Shown: positions 1 to 34,616 of the stretch, in pieces
How positions within the stretch are numbered: the stretch's first letter is position 1
Layout of the letters: each line of letters opens with the position of its first letter
Source: an uncultured Clostridia bacterium
GTDB lineage: Bacteria; Bacillota; Clostridia; Christensenellales; UBA1242
Assembly: GCA_947628205.1 (NCBI GenBank)
Contig: CANQYX010000007.1
Location: forward strand, 1-39,545
DNA: 39,545 nucleotides
Reading direction: 5' to 3'
Program-made: the position numbers and the translations under genes
Notes under the pieces: generated by a model
Seen by the model: the letters and a program-made list of their open reading frames with translations, nothing else
Database searches by the model: none
Told to the model about the DNA's origin: nothing

Positions 1-36
1 CACTCGCTCAAAATGACATTTTTATAGTAACACTTT

Positions 37-102
37 GTCATCCTGAGCAAGCGTTAGCGCGCCGAAGGATCTCAAGATTCTTCGCTTCCGCTCAAAATGA
101 CA
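37..102. repeat. Dispersed GTCAT-N3-GAG...N3'-ATCTC palindromic repeat
   Basis: GTCATCCTGAGC...CGAAGGATCTCAAGATTCTTCG...GCTCAAAATGACA. A partial related end occurs at 1-18. Confidence 0.8.
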
Positions 103-108
103 TCATTC

Positions 109-1687: not shown

Positions 1688-1719
1688 ATCTTAAAAACAA
1701 CACATTTGGCGTAAATAAA

Positions 1720-1860
1720 AATTCCTCTTGCCAAGACAAAAGGAATTGAAACAATCATATTCTCTTATCCCCTACACGAGTAGCGTTTCGTCGCACTTTT
1801 GCGATTTAAACGACTTTATGCATAATGCACTTGTGGTCTTTGGCGAACAATTTTTATTTA
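1720..1860 (-). ncRNA. Putative L10 leader / attenuator of rplJ-rplL
   Basis: Lies between the promoter at 1871-1898 and rplJ. Contains GCCAAAGACCACAAGTGCATTATGCATAAA, resembling the L10-leader core, and ends in a terminator-like hairpin (minus strand AATTCCTTTTGtcttggCAAGAGGAATT then TTTTTATTT, 1712-1747). Not verified with a covariance model. Confidence 0.55.
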
Positions 1861-1870
1861 ACTATGGAAT

Positions 1871-1898
1871 ATTATAATCAGATTTTTATTAAAGTCAA
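1871..1898 (-). promoter_or_regulatory. Sigma-A-type promoter for rplJ-rplL
   Basis: Minus strand TTGACT-16 nt-TATAAT (+ strand ATTATA 1871-1876, AGTCAA 1893-1898). Confidence 0.7.
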
Positions 1899-1956: not shown

Positions 1957-2029
1957 GGGGGCTTTGCGTTGCCTGAAAGCAACGCGGTGGCAACAAGTTG
2001 CCACAGTGCGCTTTGCGCACAAAGCCCCC
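1957..2029. repeat. Cloverleaf (four-stem) palindromic element
   Basis: Closing stem GGGGGCTTT/AAAGCCCCC (1957-1965/2021-2029) encloses three perfect hairpins: GCGTTGC/GCAACGC (1966-1985), GTGGCAAC/GTTGCCAC (1987-2004), GTGCGC/GCGCAC (2006-2020). Only 1 nt separates adjacent arms. Confidence 0.9.
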
Positions 2030-2137: not shown

Positions 2138-2166
2138 TTGACAAAGTTGATTTTTAGTGATAAAAT
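2138..2166 (+). promoter_or_regulatory. Sigma-A-type promoter upstream of the 369-aa protein gene
   Basis: TTGACA (2138-2143)-17 nt-TAAAAT (2161-2166); implies a leader of about 350 nt containing repeats. Confidence 0.6.
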
Positions 2167-2524: not shown

Positions 2525-3634
2525 ATGGAAAAAAATTTGATTGAAAAATTGGCTAACAAATGGGCGGACTTTAAATATGCCGTTCGCCACAGCAAAATTG
2601 CAAGGCGCGTGGCAACAATTATGCTTGCAGGTGCAATGGCAGTTCCGGTTGTGCTTTCTGCCAGCGCGTGCACGGTTACAATTAAGGACAATGGCGATGG
2701 AACTTTTGACATCAACCCGGTTGACCCAAACAATCAAGGCAACAATCAGGGGAACAATCAGGGGAACAATCAGGGCAATAACCAAGGCAACACGGACGAC
2801 CCAAAACCCGCACCAGATTACAGCAAATATAGCAAACTTTTGCAAGATGTTTTAAACAACTCACAATATGACGAACTTTATAGAAGATACGAGAGCAATG
2901 AATTATATGAAAACAGCAATCATTTTGATGCTGGATCAAATCTATTAGAAGCAATACCTTATAATTATTTAACAGGCAAAGGCGAAGATATTGAAGGGAT
3001 AAAAAATGGAACAGTGGGTGTTGATGCCGATCTATATATGATTGAAAATGATAAAGAACATATTTATAACAGGTTGGAAATCATTTATAGAATAAATAAT
3101 AATGAAAAATATATTAATCAATATCTTTTAAAATATGAGATTTCCGAACAAGAACTTAAAGATTTAACAATGCTATACAACGGTAGATATTATCAAGGTC
3201 CGGTAATGTTCCAACATCTTGCCAGCACAAGAGACCCTAAAGAAGAATCCATTTCGGGTTTTTGTGTAACAGAAAGTGCATATAAAGAATTGTTGGCTTC
3301 GCTTAAAGTAAATCAAATTGTAAATAAAAATTTTGGAACCAATTTAAGTAATTATGTTATAACATATTATAACAATAATGCTGATGATGAAAGAGATTTT
3401 GATTTACATTTAAAATTAATTTCTGAGAACTCAAACAATCCTGTCTCTTACGGATATATTGCAGATATGAGTTTGAAAATAGACCATTGGGCAAAACCAA
3501 CCTACTCTAATGGCATAATAAATTGGTCGTCAATTCACGAACGATATATTGATGAACAAGTTGAAGCATCCACCCCAATTACATATTTCCAATTAGATCA
3601 CGCATTTAAAAATGTTAAAACAAATTTAAATTAA
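2525..3634 (+). CDS. Putative secreted or lipid-anchored hypothetical protein with (NNQG)n linker
   Basis: ATG 2525 preceded by AAGGAG. Extended N-region and hydrophobic signal ending VVLSASAC, then NNQG x5 linker and a domain of unknown function. Confidence 0.8.
   Translation: MEKNLIEKLANKWADFKYAVRHSKIARRVATIMLAGAMAVPVVLSASACTVTIKDNGDGTFDINPVDPNNQGNNQGNNQGNNQGNNQGNTDDPKPAPDYSKYSKLLQDVLNNSQYDELYRRYESNELYENSNHFDAGSNLLEAIPYNYLTGKGEDIEGIKNGTVGVDADLYMIENDKEHIYNRLEIIYRINNNEKYINQYLLKYEISEQELKDLTMLYNGRYYQGPVMFQHLASTRDPKEESISGFCVTESAYKELLASLKVNQIVNKNFGTNLSNYVITYYNNNADDERDFDLHLKLISENSNNPVSYGYIADMSLKIDHWAKPTYSNGIINWSSIHERYIDEQVEASTPITYFQLDHAFKNVKTNLN
2729..2788 (+). repeat. 12-bp tandem repeat x5 encoding NNQG
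   Basis: AACAATCAAGGC / AACAATCAGGGG / AACAATCAGGGG / AACAATCAGGGC / AATAACCAAGGC. Confidence 0.95.
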
Positions 3635-26693: not shown

Positions 26694-29600
26694 TTACGCT
26701 TTTTCGCAAGAAATTTCATCAGAAATTGCGCCATCGGTCAAATATCCATAAACGCCCAAAGGTGTTGAACCCAAAGTGGTTTTTCCGTTTTTAAACTCAA
26801 CGCCAGAAGTGCAACCGCTTATGCTAGACAATCTGGTTTGAACGCCAGCAGAAATTTCGCCTGCCAAAATTCCAACTCGAATGTTTTCGTTTTGTTCGCT
26901 ACCCGCCGCCAAATTAACTTCTAAACCAACATTTGTTTTTAAATTGGTTAAAGTTGAACTTTGAACCACGCCCACTAAGCCGGCAAGATTGACATAAGAT
27001 TGAGAGGTTAATCGAGCGGTTGTTATCTTGCCGCTTGCCGTGCAATTATTGAAATCGTTGCAAAGCGAATAACCTGCCAAGCCACCAACATTTCTTGCTG
27101 TGGTGCTTGTAATATTAATTTGAGCATCAACCGAATCCATTTTGCCTAGGCCGGACTCTGTTGAACGATATTCGCCAACAATGCCGCCCAAATATGTTAT
27201 GGTTGCGCCAACCTCGTTGGAAGAAGTTAAGGTTAAGTCAACCGAAGTTTTGTTTTCGTAACTGCCAAATTCCCCTGCGTTTGCCGCAGCCACCAAGCCA
27301 GCCACATATTTAATGCCAGCATTGGAAATTGCCGAATAGTTGATTGTCAATTTTGCTGTGCAGCCCAATAATTTAGAATTTTGAGTTTGGCAAATTAAAC
27401 CAGCCACAAACACATTGCCCGAGCTTGTGCCAGAAACAGAAATTGACATCTCCCTTAATTGCACTTTTTGTATGGTTGCATTGACAGCTTCTTGCGCCAA
27501 AACTGCCACATAAATTGAAGAAGCGGATGTGTAGTTTGCAGACACGCTGTTATTAGCCGCGCCCAAAATTACATTTTCTATTTTTGCGCCATTTAATTTT
27601 TTGAACAACGAGAAATTTGAATTGGCAAGTTCTGCTTTAAACCCTTTAATTTCAAATCCGCCACCATTAAATTCGCCGCTAAATTCTTTTGCAATTATGC
27701 CATCGAAATCTGAAATAGATTCACAATTCAATTCCACGCTTTGCCTTAGCACAAATTTAGAAGAAGAACGATATTTAATGTTTAAAAGTTGTTGTTCAAC
27801 CGACGCGCCATTTTCAATTTCGTTTATTGAATATGGAACAGAATTTCCATCGCCAGCGGCAAAGATTTGCAAGGTTAAATCTGTTTTTGCCATGCTGCCT
27901 GCGCTTAAAATGCTGCCACGCCTTACTCGCGCACTGATAACGCTATATTGCCCCATAACGGCTGGCTCATAATAATATACATTATTGTTGGCTGCGTTGT
28001 ATGGGATTTGAGTTGTTAACAACTCCATCTCTTCGGACAAACTAATTTTTCCATCGTAATTATATTTGTAAACTGAACTTGTAATTTCAATGCTATCGTT
28101 TGCGCCAAAATCGGAACTTGTAACAATTTTAAACCTATATTCATTTTCAAGCCAACTAAACTCTTCAACCGCATTTGGCACCAAAATTGAACTTTCAAAT
28201 GTTTCAAATTGAGAATTTAAAATGTTGTTATTGCCAAGCTTTTGTGCTTGAATTTTAAATGTAAATTGTCCGCTTAAACCCACAGGAATGGTGCAATTTT
28301 GGGCTGTGGTTGAATTTTTAACAGCCACTTTTTCTTCGTTTTGATAATATTCAAATTCATAATAATATTTATCTGCTTTTTCAACAGAATTCCAACTAAC
28401 AGTGTTGTCGGTTAACTCAATTGAGTTGTGTTCTACTTTTTGTAGTTTTTCAAACTGTTTGCTTGCGCACGCTTGAGAATTTATTTTATTGCTGCCAAGT
28501 GCAGTTACGCTAATTGAATATGTGTTAGAAACAAGTTCATCGCTTAAATCCAAATAATTATTAGAGGTTGTAAACGATTTAATTTCCGCGCCCGTTACAT
28601 CCACTTTATAACCGGTTGCGTCAGCCACCGCACCCCAAGTTAAAACACCATCTTGGGCAGACAAATTTTCCACAACAGGAAGGCGCGTCACATCTTTGCT
28701 TTCAACAACAAAATTTCCATTAAGCACATAATTAATGCCTTCGTCATAGCCAAGCGCAATGATGTTTATTTGATAATCTCTATCGGCAACAATTGCCTCG
28801 GTTATTGAACTTAATTCGTCTTGATAAATTGCCTCGTCACTAAAATTATAAGTTTGATAATCGTAAGAGTTGTTTATATCTAATGTGAAGTATAAGTTTT
28901 TAGTTAACCCGTCAATTGCATAAGCCATTTTAACATAAACGCGCTTTGCAATTTTTGGAGTTGCAAATTTTAACGCGCCATTTTCAATTGAAAATTCGCC
29001 AATTTCTTCTGCCTTTTTAATTGTGTAGTTCGACAAATCGTTATAGCTGCCATTTATTATTCCTTGCTGACCTTCCTCGTTGTTTGCAATTGCACGAATT
29101 TTATATTGATAGCTGGACGACAATTCAATTTCTTCGCCATCCACCTCAATTTTTGTTGGCAAGGTGTAATACATGTAGTTCGTAGCAAATTTTACATTTT
29201 GGCTGTTTGCATCAATTCTATAAACCAGCTCTTTTCCCGTGGCACTGTCAATTAAAGTTAACTCAAATTGTTTTATGTTATATTCGCCATCCAGCGCGTT
29301 AAATTTTAACTGTCGGCCCATGCTTTTATCCACATTTGAATTTATTAATCCATATTTATAAACATTAAATCTGTTACTTGGCCTAAATGCGCTTAAAAGA
29401 TAATTTGCATTATCGTTTACGCCAATTCCTGCCAAGGTTTGAATTGTTAAATTGTAAGAAGTTGCATTATCCAAAAATTTAGAAATTTCAAACCAAACAA
29501 ATTTTGTATTTTCCATCTGTTTAAAATCCGAAATTTCAACAAAAGTGGCATCGTCATCCTGAACAAGCAATTTAACATCTTGCAAATTGTTTTGCGCATA

Positions 29601-32600
29601 ATATAAATAGAAAGTTTTAACCCCAATAACAGATGTGGCAGTAAGTTTGTAAATAGGATAATCTAACGGATTGCCGGCGGCATCCACCTGAGTGAGATCT
29701 TCAAAGCGGACTTCGCCATCTAATGTTGCAATTGAATTTATTGAATATCGAACAAACACCCTTTCCATTAATGGCGAAGTTAAGTTCGCAATTGCTTTTT
29801 CTGGCGCGCTATCGCCTGCAAGCAAATAGACATTAACAATAAATTTTCCGCCTGCTGAAATGTCAATTTCGGATAACGAGCTATCTAGCATTGAATATTT
29901 AAACTGCCCGTTTTGCTCGTCAACAACCAAATTAATTTTGTGATAATAAATTTTTTCTTGTGTGAAATCTATAATGTTATCCTTAAACACATTTAAATAA
30001 ATTTCGCCATCATTGGTTGTCAATTTTAAATAGCCATAAAGTGTGTTGTATTCGGAATATAACTTATATTTATCTTCGGTTAAAGTGCCAAATTTTTTAA
30101 CAAAATAATTATAGTCAAGTGCATAAATTGAATAATCTTCATTGGCAATATTTAGTTCTAATTTATAAATTTTTGCAACCAAATTTTCAACTTGCGTTAG
30201 CTCTGCTTGCAATTCATTAAAATTATAATTAAGTTCGCCAACGTTTAAATTTGTGTCGGTTGAAAAATTTAATTTTCCGCGTTCAATTGCCTTGGAATCT
30301 GCCTTTTTAAGCGGAGTGATTGTTGTTAACGCTTTTGCGTTTGCCGAACAAACGATTGGTAGTTTTAATTCTGTATCGGCGTTAACATCATTGCCGGTTA
30401 GGCGCACAAAAACAGAATAACTTATGCCCTCGGACAAATTAATTTTGTTGTTAAATTTATCCGCTTTTTTAAGGTCGACTATATATTTTTTTGTTTCGCT
30501 TAGCGAACTAGGGTCTAACAAACTATCCCAATCCTCTATGCCAAGTCCGCTTAACTGCTGACTGGCCAAGGTTGAATTGTCTAAAACATATTTAACGCTG
30601 TTTCCATCGTATACAAATTCAATTTCCGCTGTGCTGAAAAACTTGTTGGCATTTAAAATTAAAATTCCGTCATCCACACTAACATCTTTAATTTTATCCA
30701 GTTTATAAACGGTTAGCTTTTCGCTCCACTTGCTGTTTGCAACACTTTTTAAAATGTCCACATCCGTTTCGTTTTTCATTTTGCTTATTGCTTGAATTTG
30801 AACGGACAAAATGCCGGACATCTCGTCCATCAAAGTGGAATCGAAATTAAAATATGTGTTTTGAGTTTGCAAGTATATTGTTTTGCTTTCATCCTCAATT
30901 TTTAGCTGATACCCTTGCGCAAGCTCGTTTCTTTCCCATGTTAAATTTCCGCCTTCAACGGATAAAACTGGGCATTCCAAAATATCAATTTTAGCCACCG
31001 CATAAGCTGACGAGCAATATTGTTTTCCCTCAACCGCATCTAATGAATAAATTTTAATTTCTATTAGATAACTACCTTCTTTAAATTCAACTTCATCGCC
31101 AAGATTAGAAATGAATTTTGTTGGCATTTTAATTCTATTTTCATCCAACTTCAATTCCTTTTCGTTGGCTTCAAACCTGCCTTCAAGCGAACTGTAAGTT
31201 ACACCATTGTAACTCACCTTTAAAATGTAATTATATGAAAGCGAAGAAGGGTTGTTGTCGTTGCTCCAATTTATGCAATCAACCATTTCATCGTTTTCAA
31301 TTAACGAATATTCAACCGATAAATTTGTTGGTTTTAATAAGCCCTGAACTATTAAATTATTTAACTTTGAATTAACAAAATATGTCTCTTGATTTGTTGG
31401 ATATTCCACCACTATTTGAAAATTGAGTTGTTCAGAAGCAATTTGCACACCATAGTTTAAAACTAAGCATGCCTCAATTGTAATTTTATTATTTTCAAAA
31501 TCAAAATTTGTGCCATCAATTTTGTTAACGCTGTCCGCATAAAAATTGAAAACTTTATTTGAGGTTAAATTATTAATTTTTACATACGCGCGCTCGTCCG
31601 TTGTGCTTTCAAACAGCGTTTTCATCTCGCTTAGTTGATTGCACTGCAAAACAAAATCGCCTTTATCAATTGAAATTGCAAGCGTGGTTTTACGCGCTGA
31701 AATTTGTTCGCTAAAATTTGAATTAGAGCAATTAGGCAAATTGCCCGCACTTGCGTTTGCAATAACTTTAACCGACAAATTGAAATTTTCTGCAATGTCC
31801 AAATTGGACAAATCAAAACTCGTGTTTTTCGTGCTGCCAAGTTTGGTGTATTGTTCGCTAAATACGGAATAAATTTCATAGCAAGCAACATTGGCATTGA
31901 TGTCGTCAAAAGTTAAAATTCCGTTGCTTATTTTTAAGTTGGAAACCGATGCTAATTTGCTAATTTTTATTGGTTCAGTTTCAAGCGAATTAAACACATA
32001 GGTTGAAAAATCTTCTGCCTGCTGCACAACTAAAATTTGTGCGGACAAATATATTTCCCCATCAAATTTATAATAATTTGCCAAATCTTCTAAATAAAAT
32101 TTAATTTGATTTGTATCCTCAAAAGGCACAACTTCAACAACAGTTTTTGTTTCGTTGTAAACTTTAAAAACATATTGTTTTTTGTATTCCGTTTCTGTTT
32201 GCGTTGCGCTAACTTCAATTGCGTTATTTGCTTGTGAATCTAAATTTTTTGAAAGCTTTACATTTGGCGCGTCAGCCAATTTAAATTTGAAAACATCGCC
32301 TAATGTTGGCACAGTATTTTCATAGCTGCTTATAACATTTAATTCAATTTCTGTTGTTAAATTAATGTTGTGGCTTTTTAAAGTGTTTATCAAATTTTCT
32401 AATTTAACAATAATTTTTTCATTTTCAATTGTTGCGTTGTCCGCGCTCAAATTCACTAAAACATTTTTATTAATTAAAACAAAATAATCAGTTAGCTCAG
32501 CCGCCAAATTCGATTTTTGAATTTCAATATTTTGCTCGTTGCCTGCCGCCGAACTTTTTGGAGCAAGCAAGAATTGTGTGGTTGTTTCATCGCTTGCAAT

Positions 32601-34616
32601 TTCGGTTTCGCTTGTTCCATCAACAAAGGCAGTTAAACCAAAACTAAGATTTTCCGCATCTTTTAGTTCACTTATAATTAAATTGTAATTATCGTCAAGC
32701 AAGGATATATAAAATTTTCCGGCATCAAATAAATAAGGCAAAGAATAATTTTTTTCGTCAACGCTTTTTAACATTCCATTTTCCGATTTAAATTTTAAAT
32801 TTTCTTTTTGAATATCAAATGTTAAATTTAAAATGCTTTCGCTAAGCGTTTCCGTTTCAATTGTTAAATAACTAAAAAAATTTGCGTCAGTTTCTAATTC
32901 AAAATCGTTTAAATTTAAACTTGTACTTTTTGGTTGTGCCAGTTTTGAAATTAAAAGTTTGTATGGTTTTGAATTTAAATAATGCACACCCTCAACTTCA
33001 CCCTTTGAAATTGCGGTTAATCCAAATTCGTTTTCTCCCAGTTTGAAATCATAACTAAATCTTGTTAAGTCATCATTTTCAAAGTGTTGTTCGCTGCCAG
33101 CAAAACTTAACACAAATTCTTTAACAAGTTGGTTGTTGTTTTGGTTGTTTATTTCAAATTTATTTTCCTGCTTTTTATAAATCAGTTCAGGTGCAGATAA
33201 ACGCGACAATTTAATTGATGCTTTTTGCGAAGTTAAATAATAAACACCCTCCAACGTCTCTGCCAATTCGCTAACACAAATTTCAAATTCCTCATCCGTT
33301 ATTTCGTCCAAGCCATATTCATTTGCTTGCAGTGCCAAACTGCTAATAAGTTCGTTATTTTTAAACTCTTCCACCAAAAATTCTTTTTGGTCTGATTGCC
33401 ATTTTAATAAATCGTTTTCAACCATTAAAGTTGGAGTTGGTTTTTTGCCAAATTTTATAACATTGCCATGCCCACCCGTTTTTGCCAAATTTAAGCCTGA
33501 CAAAACCGGTTCAACATAAACCTCGTATGTGTTGCCCGCCTCAACCGTTTTTAAATTGTTTAAATTAAAACTGCAATCGTCAACCGTTTCAACCTTTTCG
33601 CCGCCGACAAAAACATTATACCCTTTTGCAAAAGGCATTGAATCCCACACCAAAACTGATGCATTTAAACTAATTTGCACCGGACCTAAAACATTAATTT
33701 CATAATGCCTGCTAACTGAAGGATATGCGGTTGAATACATTTGGGCAATTTCGCTGTTAACCAGTGCGGTTATTTGCAAATTTACCATTTGGCCAGCATA
33801 TTTATTTTGCAAAGCCATCAAGGAAATTTTGGTGCTTGAAAGGTCGGTTAACTCGGGTTGTTTTTCGCCATTAATGGACAAATCAAAATTTGTTGCATGC
33901 GGGTGGCTAAATGTTAAATACGATTGCCCGTTTTCGTCCGCCTCTATTTTAACATTTTGCACTTCTCCAACCTGATAAATAGTAATTGGTGCACAAAAAT
34001 CCGAAGATTCAGCAACATGGCTATAACTTGGCGCATCGGCTCGAACTTTTGCTATCAATCCGCAATCAAATGCTTGATGATGTTGCGCATATTCTTCCAA
34101 AGAAAATTCCAACCGCTGACCTAGCGAAATATCCTCGCCATTTATGTTAATTGTATATCCAACCGCATTAGCAATTCCGTTAAATGTAAATTTTTTATCC
34201 AGTTCGTTATAACGCAAATTTAATGCTGCATCCACATCTGCACCGCCCAACTTAATTGGCGCGTCATAAACCCTAACTAAAATTGTGTTTTGAATGGTTT
34301 CGTTGTCGGCCGCAACAACAGTCAACACCGCGCTGCCAGCACTAACAGCAACTATTTTTTGCCCAGAAATCTGCAAAACCTCTTGGTTAGAGCTTGAAAA
34401 CGAAAACCCTTTGTTAGAAGCAAAACTTGGCACAAAAGTTATTTTTGGGCAATACTCATCTCCCACAAGCAAAGAAATTTCTTCCCCACCAATTTCAGTT
34501 AAATCGAAATCCACCCTCTCAACTGGTGTTCTTGAAGCTTTGCACCCAAAGGCAAAAAGAGAAAACAATATCAAAATTGCCAATATGCAAAAATATCTTT
34601 TGTTCCCCTTTGACAT
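26694..34616 (-). CDS. Large (2640 aa) putative surface lipoprotein: Big2-like + tandem Fn3/Ig-like modules + C-terminal GLUG-like block
   Basis: MSKGNKRYFCILAILILFSLFAFGCKASR (lipobox FGC). Big2-like FSFSSSNQEVLQISGQKIVAVSAGSAVLTV. Repeated 'W..v..A.gY.v.v.G' modules (LVWDSMPFAKGYNVFVGG, LTWGAVADATGYKVDVTG). C-terminal LGGIVGEYRS, VGGLAGYSLC, LAGLVGVVQS. Confidence 0.92.
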   Translation of the reverse strand: MSKGNKRYFCILAILILFSLFAFGCKASRTPVERVDFDLTEIGGEEISLLVGDEYCPKITFVPSFASNKGFSFSSSNQEVLQISGQKIVAVSAGSAVLTVVAADNETIQNTILVRVYDAPIKLGGADVDAALNLRYNELDKKFTFNGIANAVGYTININGEDISLGQRLEFSLEEYAQHHQAFDCGLIAKVRADAPSYSHVAESSDFCAPITIYQVGEVQNVKIEADENGQSYLTFSHPHATNFDLSINGEKQPELTDLSSTKISLMALQNKYAGQMVNLQITALVNSEIAQMYSTAYPSVSRHYEINVLGPVQISLNASVLVWDSMPFAKGYNVFVGGEKVETVDDCSFNLNNLKTVEAGNTYEVYVEPVLSGLNLAKTGGHGNVIKFGKKPTPTLMVENDLLKWQSDQKEFLVEEFKNNELISSLALQANEYGLDEITDEEFEICVSELAETLEGVYYLTSQKASIKLSRLSAPELIYKKQENKFEINNQNNNQLVKEFVLSFAGSEQHFENDDLTRFSYDFKLGENEFGLTAISKGEVEGVHYLNSKPYKLLISKLAQPKSTSLNLNDFELETDANFFSYLTIETETLSESILNLTFDIQKENLKFKSENGMLKSVDEKNYSLPYLFDAGKFYISLLDDNYNLIISELKDAENLSFGLTAFVDGTSETEIASDETTTQFLLAPKSSAAGNEQNIEIQKSNLAAELTDYFVLINKNVLVNLSADNATIENEKIIVKLENLINTLKSHNINLTTEIELNVISSYENTVPTLGDVFKFKLADAPNVKLSKNLDSQANNAIEVSATQTETEYKKQYVFKVYNETKTVVEVVPFEDTNQIKFYLEDLANYYKFDGEIYLSAQILVVQQAEDFSTYVFNSLETEPIKISKLASVSNLKISNGILTFDDINANVACYEIYSVFSEQYTKLGSTKNTSFDLSNLDIAENFNLSVKVIANASAGNLPNCSNSNFSEQISARKTTLAISIDKGDFVLQCNQLSEMKTLFESTTDERAYVKINNLTSNKVFNFYADSVNKIDGTNFDFENNKITIEACLVLNYGVQIASEQLNFQIVVEYPTNQETYFVNSKLNNLIVQGLLKPTNLSVEYSLIENDEMVDCINWSNDNNPSSLSYNYILKVSYNGVTYSSLEGRFEANEKELKLDENRIKMPTKFISNLGDEVEFKEGSYLIEIKIYSLDAVEGKQYCSSAYAVAKIDILECPVLSVEGGNLTWERNELAQGYQLKIEDESKTIYLQTQNTYFNFDSTLMDEMSGILSVQIQAISKMKNETDVDILKSVANSKWSEKLTVYKLDKIKDVSVDDGILILNANKFFSTAEIEFVYDGNSVKYVLDNSTLASQQLSGLGIEDWDSLLDPSSLSETKKYIVDLKKADKFNNKINLSEGISYSVFVRLTGNDVNADTELKLPIVCSANAKALTTITPLKKADSKAIERGKLNFSTDTNLNVGELNYNFNELQAELTQVENLVAKIYKLELNIANEDYSIYALDYNYFVKKFGTLTEDKYKLYSEYNTLYGYLKLTTNDGEIYLNVFKDNIIDFTQEKIYYHKINLVVDEQNGQFKYSMLDSSLSEIDISAGGKFIVNVYLLAGDSAPEKAIANLTSPLMERVFVRYSINSIATLDGEVRFEDLTQVDAAGNPLDYPIYKLTATSVIGVKTFYLYYAQNNLQDVKLLVQDDDATFVEISDFKQMENTKFVWFEISKFLDNATSYNLTIQTLAGIGVNDNANYLLSAFRPSNRFNVYKYGLINSNVDKSMGRQLKFNALDGEYNIKQFELTLIDSATGKELVYRIDANSQNVKFATNYMYYTLPTKIEVDGEEIELSSSYQYKIRAIANNEEGQQGIINGSYNDLSNYTIKKAEEIGEFSIENGALKFATPKIAKRVYVKMAYAIDGLTKNLYFTLDINNSYDYQTYNFSDEAIYQDELSSITEAIVADRDYQINIIALGYDEGINYVLNGNFVVESKDVTRLPVVENLSAQDGVLTWGAVADATGYKVDVTGAEIKSFTTSNNYLDLSDELVSNTYSISVTALGSNKINSQACASKQFEKLQKVEHNSIELTDNTVSWNSVEKADKYYYEFEYYQNEEKVAVKNSTTAQNCTIPVGLSGQFTFKIQAQKLGNNNILNSQFETFESSILVPNAVEEFSWLENEYRFKIVTSSDFGANDSIEITSSVYKYNYDGKISLSEEMELLTTQIPYNAANNNVYYYEPAVMGQYSVISARVRRGSILSAGSMAKTDLTLQIFAAGDGNSVPYSINEIENGASVEQQLLNIKYRSSSKFVLRQSVELNCESISDFDGIIAKEFSGEFNGGGFEIKGFKAELANSNFSLFKKLNGAKIENVILGAANNSVSANYTSASSIYVAVLAQEAVNATIQKVQLREMSISVSGTSSGNVFVAGLICQTQNSKLLGCTAKLTINYSAISNAGIKYVAGLVAAANAGEFGSYENKTSVDLTLTSSNEVGATITYLGGIVGEYRSTESGLGKMDSVDAQINITSTTARNVGGLAGYSLCNDFNNCTASGKITTARLTSQSYVNLAGLVGVVQSSTLTNLKTNVGLEVNLAAGSEQNENIRVGILAGEISAGVQTRLSSISGCTSGVEFKNGKTTLGSTPLGVYGYLTDGAISDEISCEKA

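Follow-up and report, generated by a model that had tools for sequence, protein, structure and literature searches.

To our knowledge, the palindromic repeats of bacteria are single or double hairpins that are recognised by their sequence, usually together with a RAYT. The ends of IS200/IS605 elements and attC sites are folded single-stranded DNA that recombinases read partly by its shape, and no target duplication is made; the hairpins into which they fold are imperfect and carry defined extrahelical bases. As a kind of DNA, mobile palindromes and hairpin elements have been described before (PMC3733652, PMC3116915, PMC2267715, PMC2800124, PMC4524435). REPs are palindromes of 20-40 bp tagged GTAG or CGTC, of which the GTAG types are linked to RAYTs (PMC3733652, PMC3116915), and bcr1 of Bacillus cereus is listed as an SLS family (PMC2267715).

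We analysed a window of 39,545 nucleotides, i.e. the whole stretch of contig CANQYX010000007.1 from an uncultured Clostridia bacterium (assembly GCA_947628205.1), which carries an element of 73 nucleotides at 1957-2029. This element probably belongs to a dispersed DNA repeat that is MITE-like, non-autonomous and recognised by its folded shape. What is inherited would be largely a DNA shape, with a constant cloverleaf in which almost every letter of the arms can change. Like REPs and REPINs, the repeat is short, extragenic, dispersed and palindromic, non-autonomous and restricted to certain species (PMC3733652, PMC3116915); unlike them, it measures 67-94 bp, has three arms in a four-way junction, lacks a tag, is found without a RAYT in element-rich genomes and turns its arms over almost completely. 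With MITEs and bcr1 repeats (about 100-150 bp) it has in common an intergenic, dispersed location, a conserved secondary structure and mobile behaviour, but target duplication was not seen, a parent insertion sequence was not found, and shape rather than sequence is conserved. Compact hairpins that invade spacers are also known from mitochondria, namely sponge RHE (PMC2800124), fungal double-hairpin elements and LIMP palindromes (PMC4524435). These are likewise confined to groups of close species, have variable loops and an unsettled role as DNA or RNA; however, they are organellar and form single or double hairpins (triple in one sponge). In sponge RHE (PMC2800124), stems are conserved and loops alone change, the reverse of the paired turnover of the cloverleaf. 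We found no account in the open-licence literature of a bacterial perfect three-armed cloverleaf repeat with wholesale paired turnover. What is conserved here is a three-armed cloverleaf that almost excludes G-U on both strands, lies in apparently untranscribed gaps and is gained and lost between close species. IS200/IS605 and attC likewise make no target duplication; for the cloverleaf repeat no cognate enzyme was found.

The element folds into a perfect cloverleaf with a four-way junction, in which a G-rich closing stem of 9 bp encloses hairpins of 7, 7 and 6 bp (Table 1). The closing stem and the single-nucleotide spacers G1986 and A2005 are present as the original prediction had claimed. 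Its arm lengths of 7, 8 and 6 bp hold for the first and the last arm; the middle hairpin has 7 bp and a 4-nt loop, and 8 bp would need a loop of 2 nt. Folding as RNA gave -46.1 kcal/mol (z -6.1) and as DNA -30.6 (z -6.4), and none of 200 shuffles was as good in either case. The cloverleaf at this position is far beyond chance. Consistent with the earlier statement that it is not a tRNA, ARAGORN found no tRNA at 1957-2029 and an Rfam search returned no family matching at the element itself.

Table 1 Features of the cloverleaf element and its immediate surroundings (positions in the window).
Feature	Position	Strand	Basis
Closing stem, 5' side, GGGGGCTTT	1957..1965	+	sequence and fold; family core GGGGCTTT/AAAGCCCC
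Hairpin arm 1, GCGTTGC-ctgaaa-GCAACGC, 7 bp	1966..1985	+	sequence and fold
Hairpin arm 2, GTGGCAA-caag-TTGCCAC, 7 bp (8 bp with 2-nt loop)	1987..2004	+	sequence and fold
Hairpin arm 3, GTGCGC-ttt-GCGCAC, 6 bp	2006..2020	+	sequence and fold
Closing stem, 3' side, AAAGCCCCC	2021..2029	+	sequence and fold
Complete cloverleaf element, 1 of 9 genome copies; both strands fold alike	1957..2029	.	covariance models, folding
Predicted promoter of rplJ-rplL, directed away from element	1871..1898	-	TTGACT-16-TATAAT, 11/12 matches
Predicted promoter of gene at 2525, directed away from element	2138..2166	+	TTGACA-17-TAAAAT, 11/12 matches
L10 leader RNA of rplJ, neighbour outside element	1707..1861	-	Rfam RF00557, 45.3 bits

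Plain BLAST of the 73-mer returned only itself in the source genome (at E 0.001) and nothing beyond short arm matches in the relatives, and finding the family required a stem-anchored pattern and structure models. The pattern GGGGCTTT-N40-70-AAAGCCCC had 7 sites in the source genome and also matched copies in 7 further genomes from the genus, and its backwards-read version, used as a control, had 0 matches. Structural scanning added 2 further source-genome copies. A covariance model built on a single copy recovers all 9 of these (E <=0.004) and every copy then known in the relatives, including that of genome G009, which is still matched with its deviating closing stem GGCGGAAGC. A strict scan for GC-rich cloverleaves (GC >0.5, with a minimum of 7 bp for the closing stem and of 5 bp for each of three perfect arms) yielded 8 in 984 kb of the source genome compared to 0 in three dinucleotide-shuffled genomes; the 984 kb covered in our searches are part of 986 kb. 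In two scans, tRNA genes surfaced as topological look-alikes and thereby showed, as a positive control, that cloverleaves are detected. The search for further copies in the source genome and its relatives, which the original prediction had proposed, thus gave 9 copies for the source genome (0.98 Mb) and about 46 for the genus, in which 10 of 34 genomes have them. This total comprises the copies of our folded set (45, one of which is from genome G215 outside the genus), an additional copy at the smr site of G007 and a few copies from partial lists of the covariance search. As judged from these searches, the element is a member of a multicopy, dispersed family.

A second covariance model placed copies in 9 of the 34 genus genomes, ten once G009 is added. 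No copy was detected in the other 24, all genomes being MAGs of many contigs, in which copies at contig ends or with deviant stems may escape detection, and the genus search being biased toward closing stems that resemble GGGGCT. In a three-protein tree, G000, G014, G021, G031, G032, G007, G024, G010 and G013 form one clade, within which G031 alone is without copies; outside it, G001 holds about a dozen and G009 one. The paralogs of G001 have arms and closing stems in common. Across copies, the arms often recur in the order GCGC-type, GGCGGGC-type and (G)CACAAAAC-type, an order read by eye with the orientation picked from the A-rich arm. This suggests a single ancestor for the copies. A scan of 297 genomes of the order found the repeat in its own genus and one genuine match in another family (G215); a match in G191 was dropped, as it folds differently. 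Among the matches listed from a pattern scan of a genome collection, true cloverleaves were present in L150 and L252 only, and none was on a viral contig. L150, a public MAG from rabbit (uncultured Clostridia bacterium isolate Lapin-021__bin12), holds an identical copy. The plasmid and phage collections searched held no match to the element.

With these copies at hand, we examined how pairing is kept. The minimum-energy structures of RNAfold contain three hairpins in 43 of the 45 copies; the remaining two (G013_C26 and G014_C63) have a competing fold, yet can be parsed into three arms. All reliably folded copies are thereby shown with exactly three predicted arms. In a structure-fitted alignment, standard pairs fill 95.1% of cells, and variation on both sides is seen at 32 of 34 pairs, so that the covariation sought in the original prediction is present. 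Two-sided changes occupy 377 cells; shuffles gave 101 and slid controls no more than 90. This alignment leans toward the structure because it was fitted to it and lists many copies twice, with one row per strand. The 45 copies have 1461 pairs in total, of which 1440 are Watson-Crick and 11 (plus strand) and 10 (minus strand) are wobble pairs (1.4%), whereas the 36 tRNAs of the source genome have 64 G-U in 786 pairs (8.1%). Selection at the RNA level tolerates G-U on the transcribed strand. The near-absence of wobble on both strands therefore points to pairing that is kept at the DNA level, or to perfect palindromes being restored by mutation. These data bear directly on an independent structured non-coding RNA gene, e.g. 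for a tRNA-like RNA. Its tRNA-sized cloverleaf and strong covariation would fit such a gene, but the structure is equally good on either strand, wobble is far rarer than in tRNAs, the loops show no sequence conservation across copies, Rfam and ARAGORN have no match, and many near-relatives are without the element at the same site. We consider this reading extremely unlikely, and strong covariation by itself is, as a warning, no proof of RNA. The unannotated structured RNA that the original prediction had listed is disfavoured on account of the rare and strand-equal wobble, the unconserved loops and the position between terminator and promoter.

Orthologous copies allowed us to follow how the letters change. 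Such copies occupy the truA site (G000, G014 and G021), the IUNH site (G000, G014 and G007) and the site upstream of smr (G000, G010, G024 and G007), and they differ via paired changes. At smr, for instance, the arm GCGCGAGA...TCTCGCGC corresponds to GTGCGAAA...TTTCGCAC, with two pairs altered on both sides, and the closing stem turns over too (GGGGATGGGCT in G014 compared to GGGGGAGGGGCT in G021 at the same site). Sequence comparison shows turnover almost entirely through paired changes. Several loops are swapped for their reverse complement, exactly so for tgc/gca and with one further change each for CTCTTG/CGAGAG and for the G014_C2/G021_C18a loop; some changed loops are no flips. Template switching is reported to create and maintain perfect hairpins and multibase paired changes (PMC8794818), and the flipped loops fit the same class of event. 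The family therewith offers an unusually clean natural record of palindrome upkeep, in paired changes and flipped loops, and a direct test bed for template-switch mutation. Perfect pairing could also be produced largely by such mutation, with no enzyme reading the shape.

A comparison of orthologous sites shows insertion polymorphism, in that sites are occupied in some genomes and empty in others, with no visible target duplication. Empty sites were observed at truA (G007 and G013), pyk (G021 and G010), lepA/sigma (G021 and G031), C8a (G014), gene244/rpmA (G000) and rplJ (G021 and G014). Flank matches of the kind that a target-site duplication would leave numbered 1 observed compared to 2.7 expected for 2 bp and 2 compared to 0.8 for 3 bp, with 0 for 4 and 5 bp. 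In four genomes, the element sits 5' of smr, where a terminator precedes it and the smr promoter follows it. In G014, the terminator adjoins the promoter, the 5' site is clean, and an element lies just 3' of the smr stop that has the arms CCGCGC and GCGCGAGAtaaaTCTCGCGC in common with the 5' element. This seems to be the relocation of an intact copy, as judged from two common arms, one of which has just 6 bp; a local duplication followed by loss could also account for it, with no relocation. Several copies are old and orthologous (smr in four species, IUNH in three), and transposition must therefore be rare. A family of many copies with covariation on both sides of its pairs, pairing kept in DNA, sites that are occupied or empty and arms common to several copies together back two options of the original prediction, a cruciform-forming element and a mobile palindrome; its REP-type variant did not hold up.

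REPs and REPINs mobilised by a RAYT (Y1 transposase) would likewise be extragenic, dispersed and species-restricted palindromes. We searched for the REP-associated transposase that the original prediction had proposed and found no Y1_Tnp match in the assembled sequences of G000, G001, G014, G021, G007, G010, G013, G024 and G009, i.e. no RAYT in the element-rich genomes; among element-bearing genus genomes, only G032 has a Y1 transposase. Flank positions 1-14 show no conserved motif, so that neither GTAG nor CGTC stands unpaired as a tag at the stem base. The body is 2-3x as long as a REP, has three arms and turns over almost completely in sequence. A REP-type origin is therefore very unlikely.

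We favour a mobile DNA repeat recognised by its fold, which might work as follows. An enzyme encoded elsewhere would recognise this fold mainly from its shape and its closing stem, whether the DNA is single-stranded or extruded as a cruciform, and would move or copy the element into spacers, much as hairpins are handled by IS200/IS605-type enzymes. During replication, template switching and the flipping of hairpins would restore perfect pairing and flip loops, so that letters change and the shape stays. Selection against damage would leave copies chiefly in untranscribed spacers upstream of promoters. The trans-acting enzyme is the least certain step because no enzyme was found. When the source genome (984 kb) was searched for GGGGCTTT outside a pair and for long repeats, nothing with such ends turned up, and in the same 984 kb of this fragmentary assembly we saw no autonomous partner whose terminal inverted repeats agree; neither a transposase or relaxase nor a partner of matching ends was identified. 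More tentatively, a recombinase or junction-binding enzyme might read the perfect four-way-junction cloverleaf as a mimic of a Holliday junction, with almost no regard to its letters, and the copies would thereby keep moving as paired changes replace nearly all of their sequence; this is conceivable, though we regard it as doubtful. The family may provide a lead toward an enzyme that may read DNA shape.

The genomic setting brings in two further explanations. Inspection of open reading frames located the copies in intergenic spacers; mechanical frames overlap 8 of the copies inspected, that of the window included, and none of these frames looked like a real gene. The neighbours are mostly housekeeping genes, as named by reading translations, a Pfam check having covered the window's own neighbours. 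In the window, divergent promoters flank the element as the original prediction had described (Table 1). Across copies, 14 promoter-like sites (at least 9.5 of 12 matches) are directed away from the element and 2 toward it, and -35 boxes often lie 5-10 bp off the stem. Together with the spacer location, the DNA-level pairing and the recurrence of ribosomal protein promoters nearby (rplJ in three genomes; rplM, rpsO and rpsF, by reading translations), this would suit a cruciform of benefit to the host, which takes up negative supercoiling or insulates the transcription units on either side and is selected upstream of promoters or between divergent genes. However, many orthologous sites are empty in close relatives, rplJ in G021 and G014 included, no copy was detected in 24 of the 34 genus genomes, and a tolerated insertion would equally show avoidance of genes and promoters. 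A host function of this kind thus appears unlikely. The copies upstream of rplJ in G000, G032 and G009 have unlike arms.

Many copies begin no more than about 10 bp from a stop codon, as would be expected if the cloverleaf were a bidirectional 3'-end or terminator structure in RNA at the borders of transcription units. At IUNH, a T6 follows the stem in G007, and G013 has a simple GGGC-AGAT-GCCC-T6 hairpin at the cloverleaf position; T-rich tails are slightly enriched (15 T-rich compared to 4 A-rich of 80 flanks). A GC stem followed by a T-run is present at few sites (IUNH in G007, truA in G000) but missing from most copies, including the plus strand of the window. Separate ordinary terminators adjoin the element at the smr and gene244/rpmA sites, and wobble pairs are nearly absent and symmetric between strands. 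We therefore judge a terminator function improbable. Past the IUNH stop codon of G013 (L395, G013:C62), a terminator-like TAGGGCAGATGCCCTTTTTTG stands where relatives have the cloverleaf; this may have been left by a deletion, or it may represent the ancestral state.

The copies of G215, in another family of the order, form a set with its own closing stem, in which a repeat of 120-155 bp with 82-92% identity contains the cloverleaf core. Five complete and one partial copy lie within 20 kb of one contig (L528, G215:C35, 1-20000); in 250 kb of other G215 contigs the repeat is almost absent save for two contigs that terminate in partial copies of it. By its layout, this cluster looks like a recently amplified mobile repeat.

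Several further observations concern the surroundings of the element. A minus-strand reading frame from 2099 to about 1903, starting MSKFLCFAMFGLMGLAILLAAQ, crosses the element as seen by eye; it is unsupported as a gene by orthologous loci and other copies and is possibly a coding remnant. The gene at 2525-3634 (plus strand) encodes a predicted lipoprotein-like protein without Pfam match, and similar-looking signal-peptide genes stand divergent to rplJ in the relatives L030, L031, L038 and L044. The spacers here are filled with repeats. A second family of the type TCATCCTGAGCGAAGCGAAGGATCTC / CTCAGAATGACA occurs at window positions 1-105, 631-660, 1640-1690 and 2340-2480, further repeats lie around 1396-1465 and 2235-2303, and GGGGTCCCC-type palindromes are found near 108-142 and 1375-1394. 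Positions 2217-2364 have 85% identity to L023 15105-15259. Finally, although the genome has <1 Mb, the window contains two giant open reading frames on the minus strand, at 3682-25002 (7106 aa) and 26694-34616 (2640 aa).
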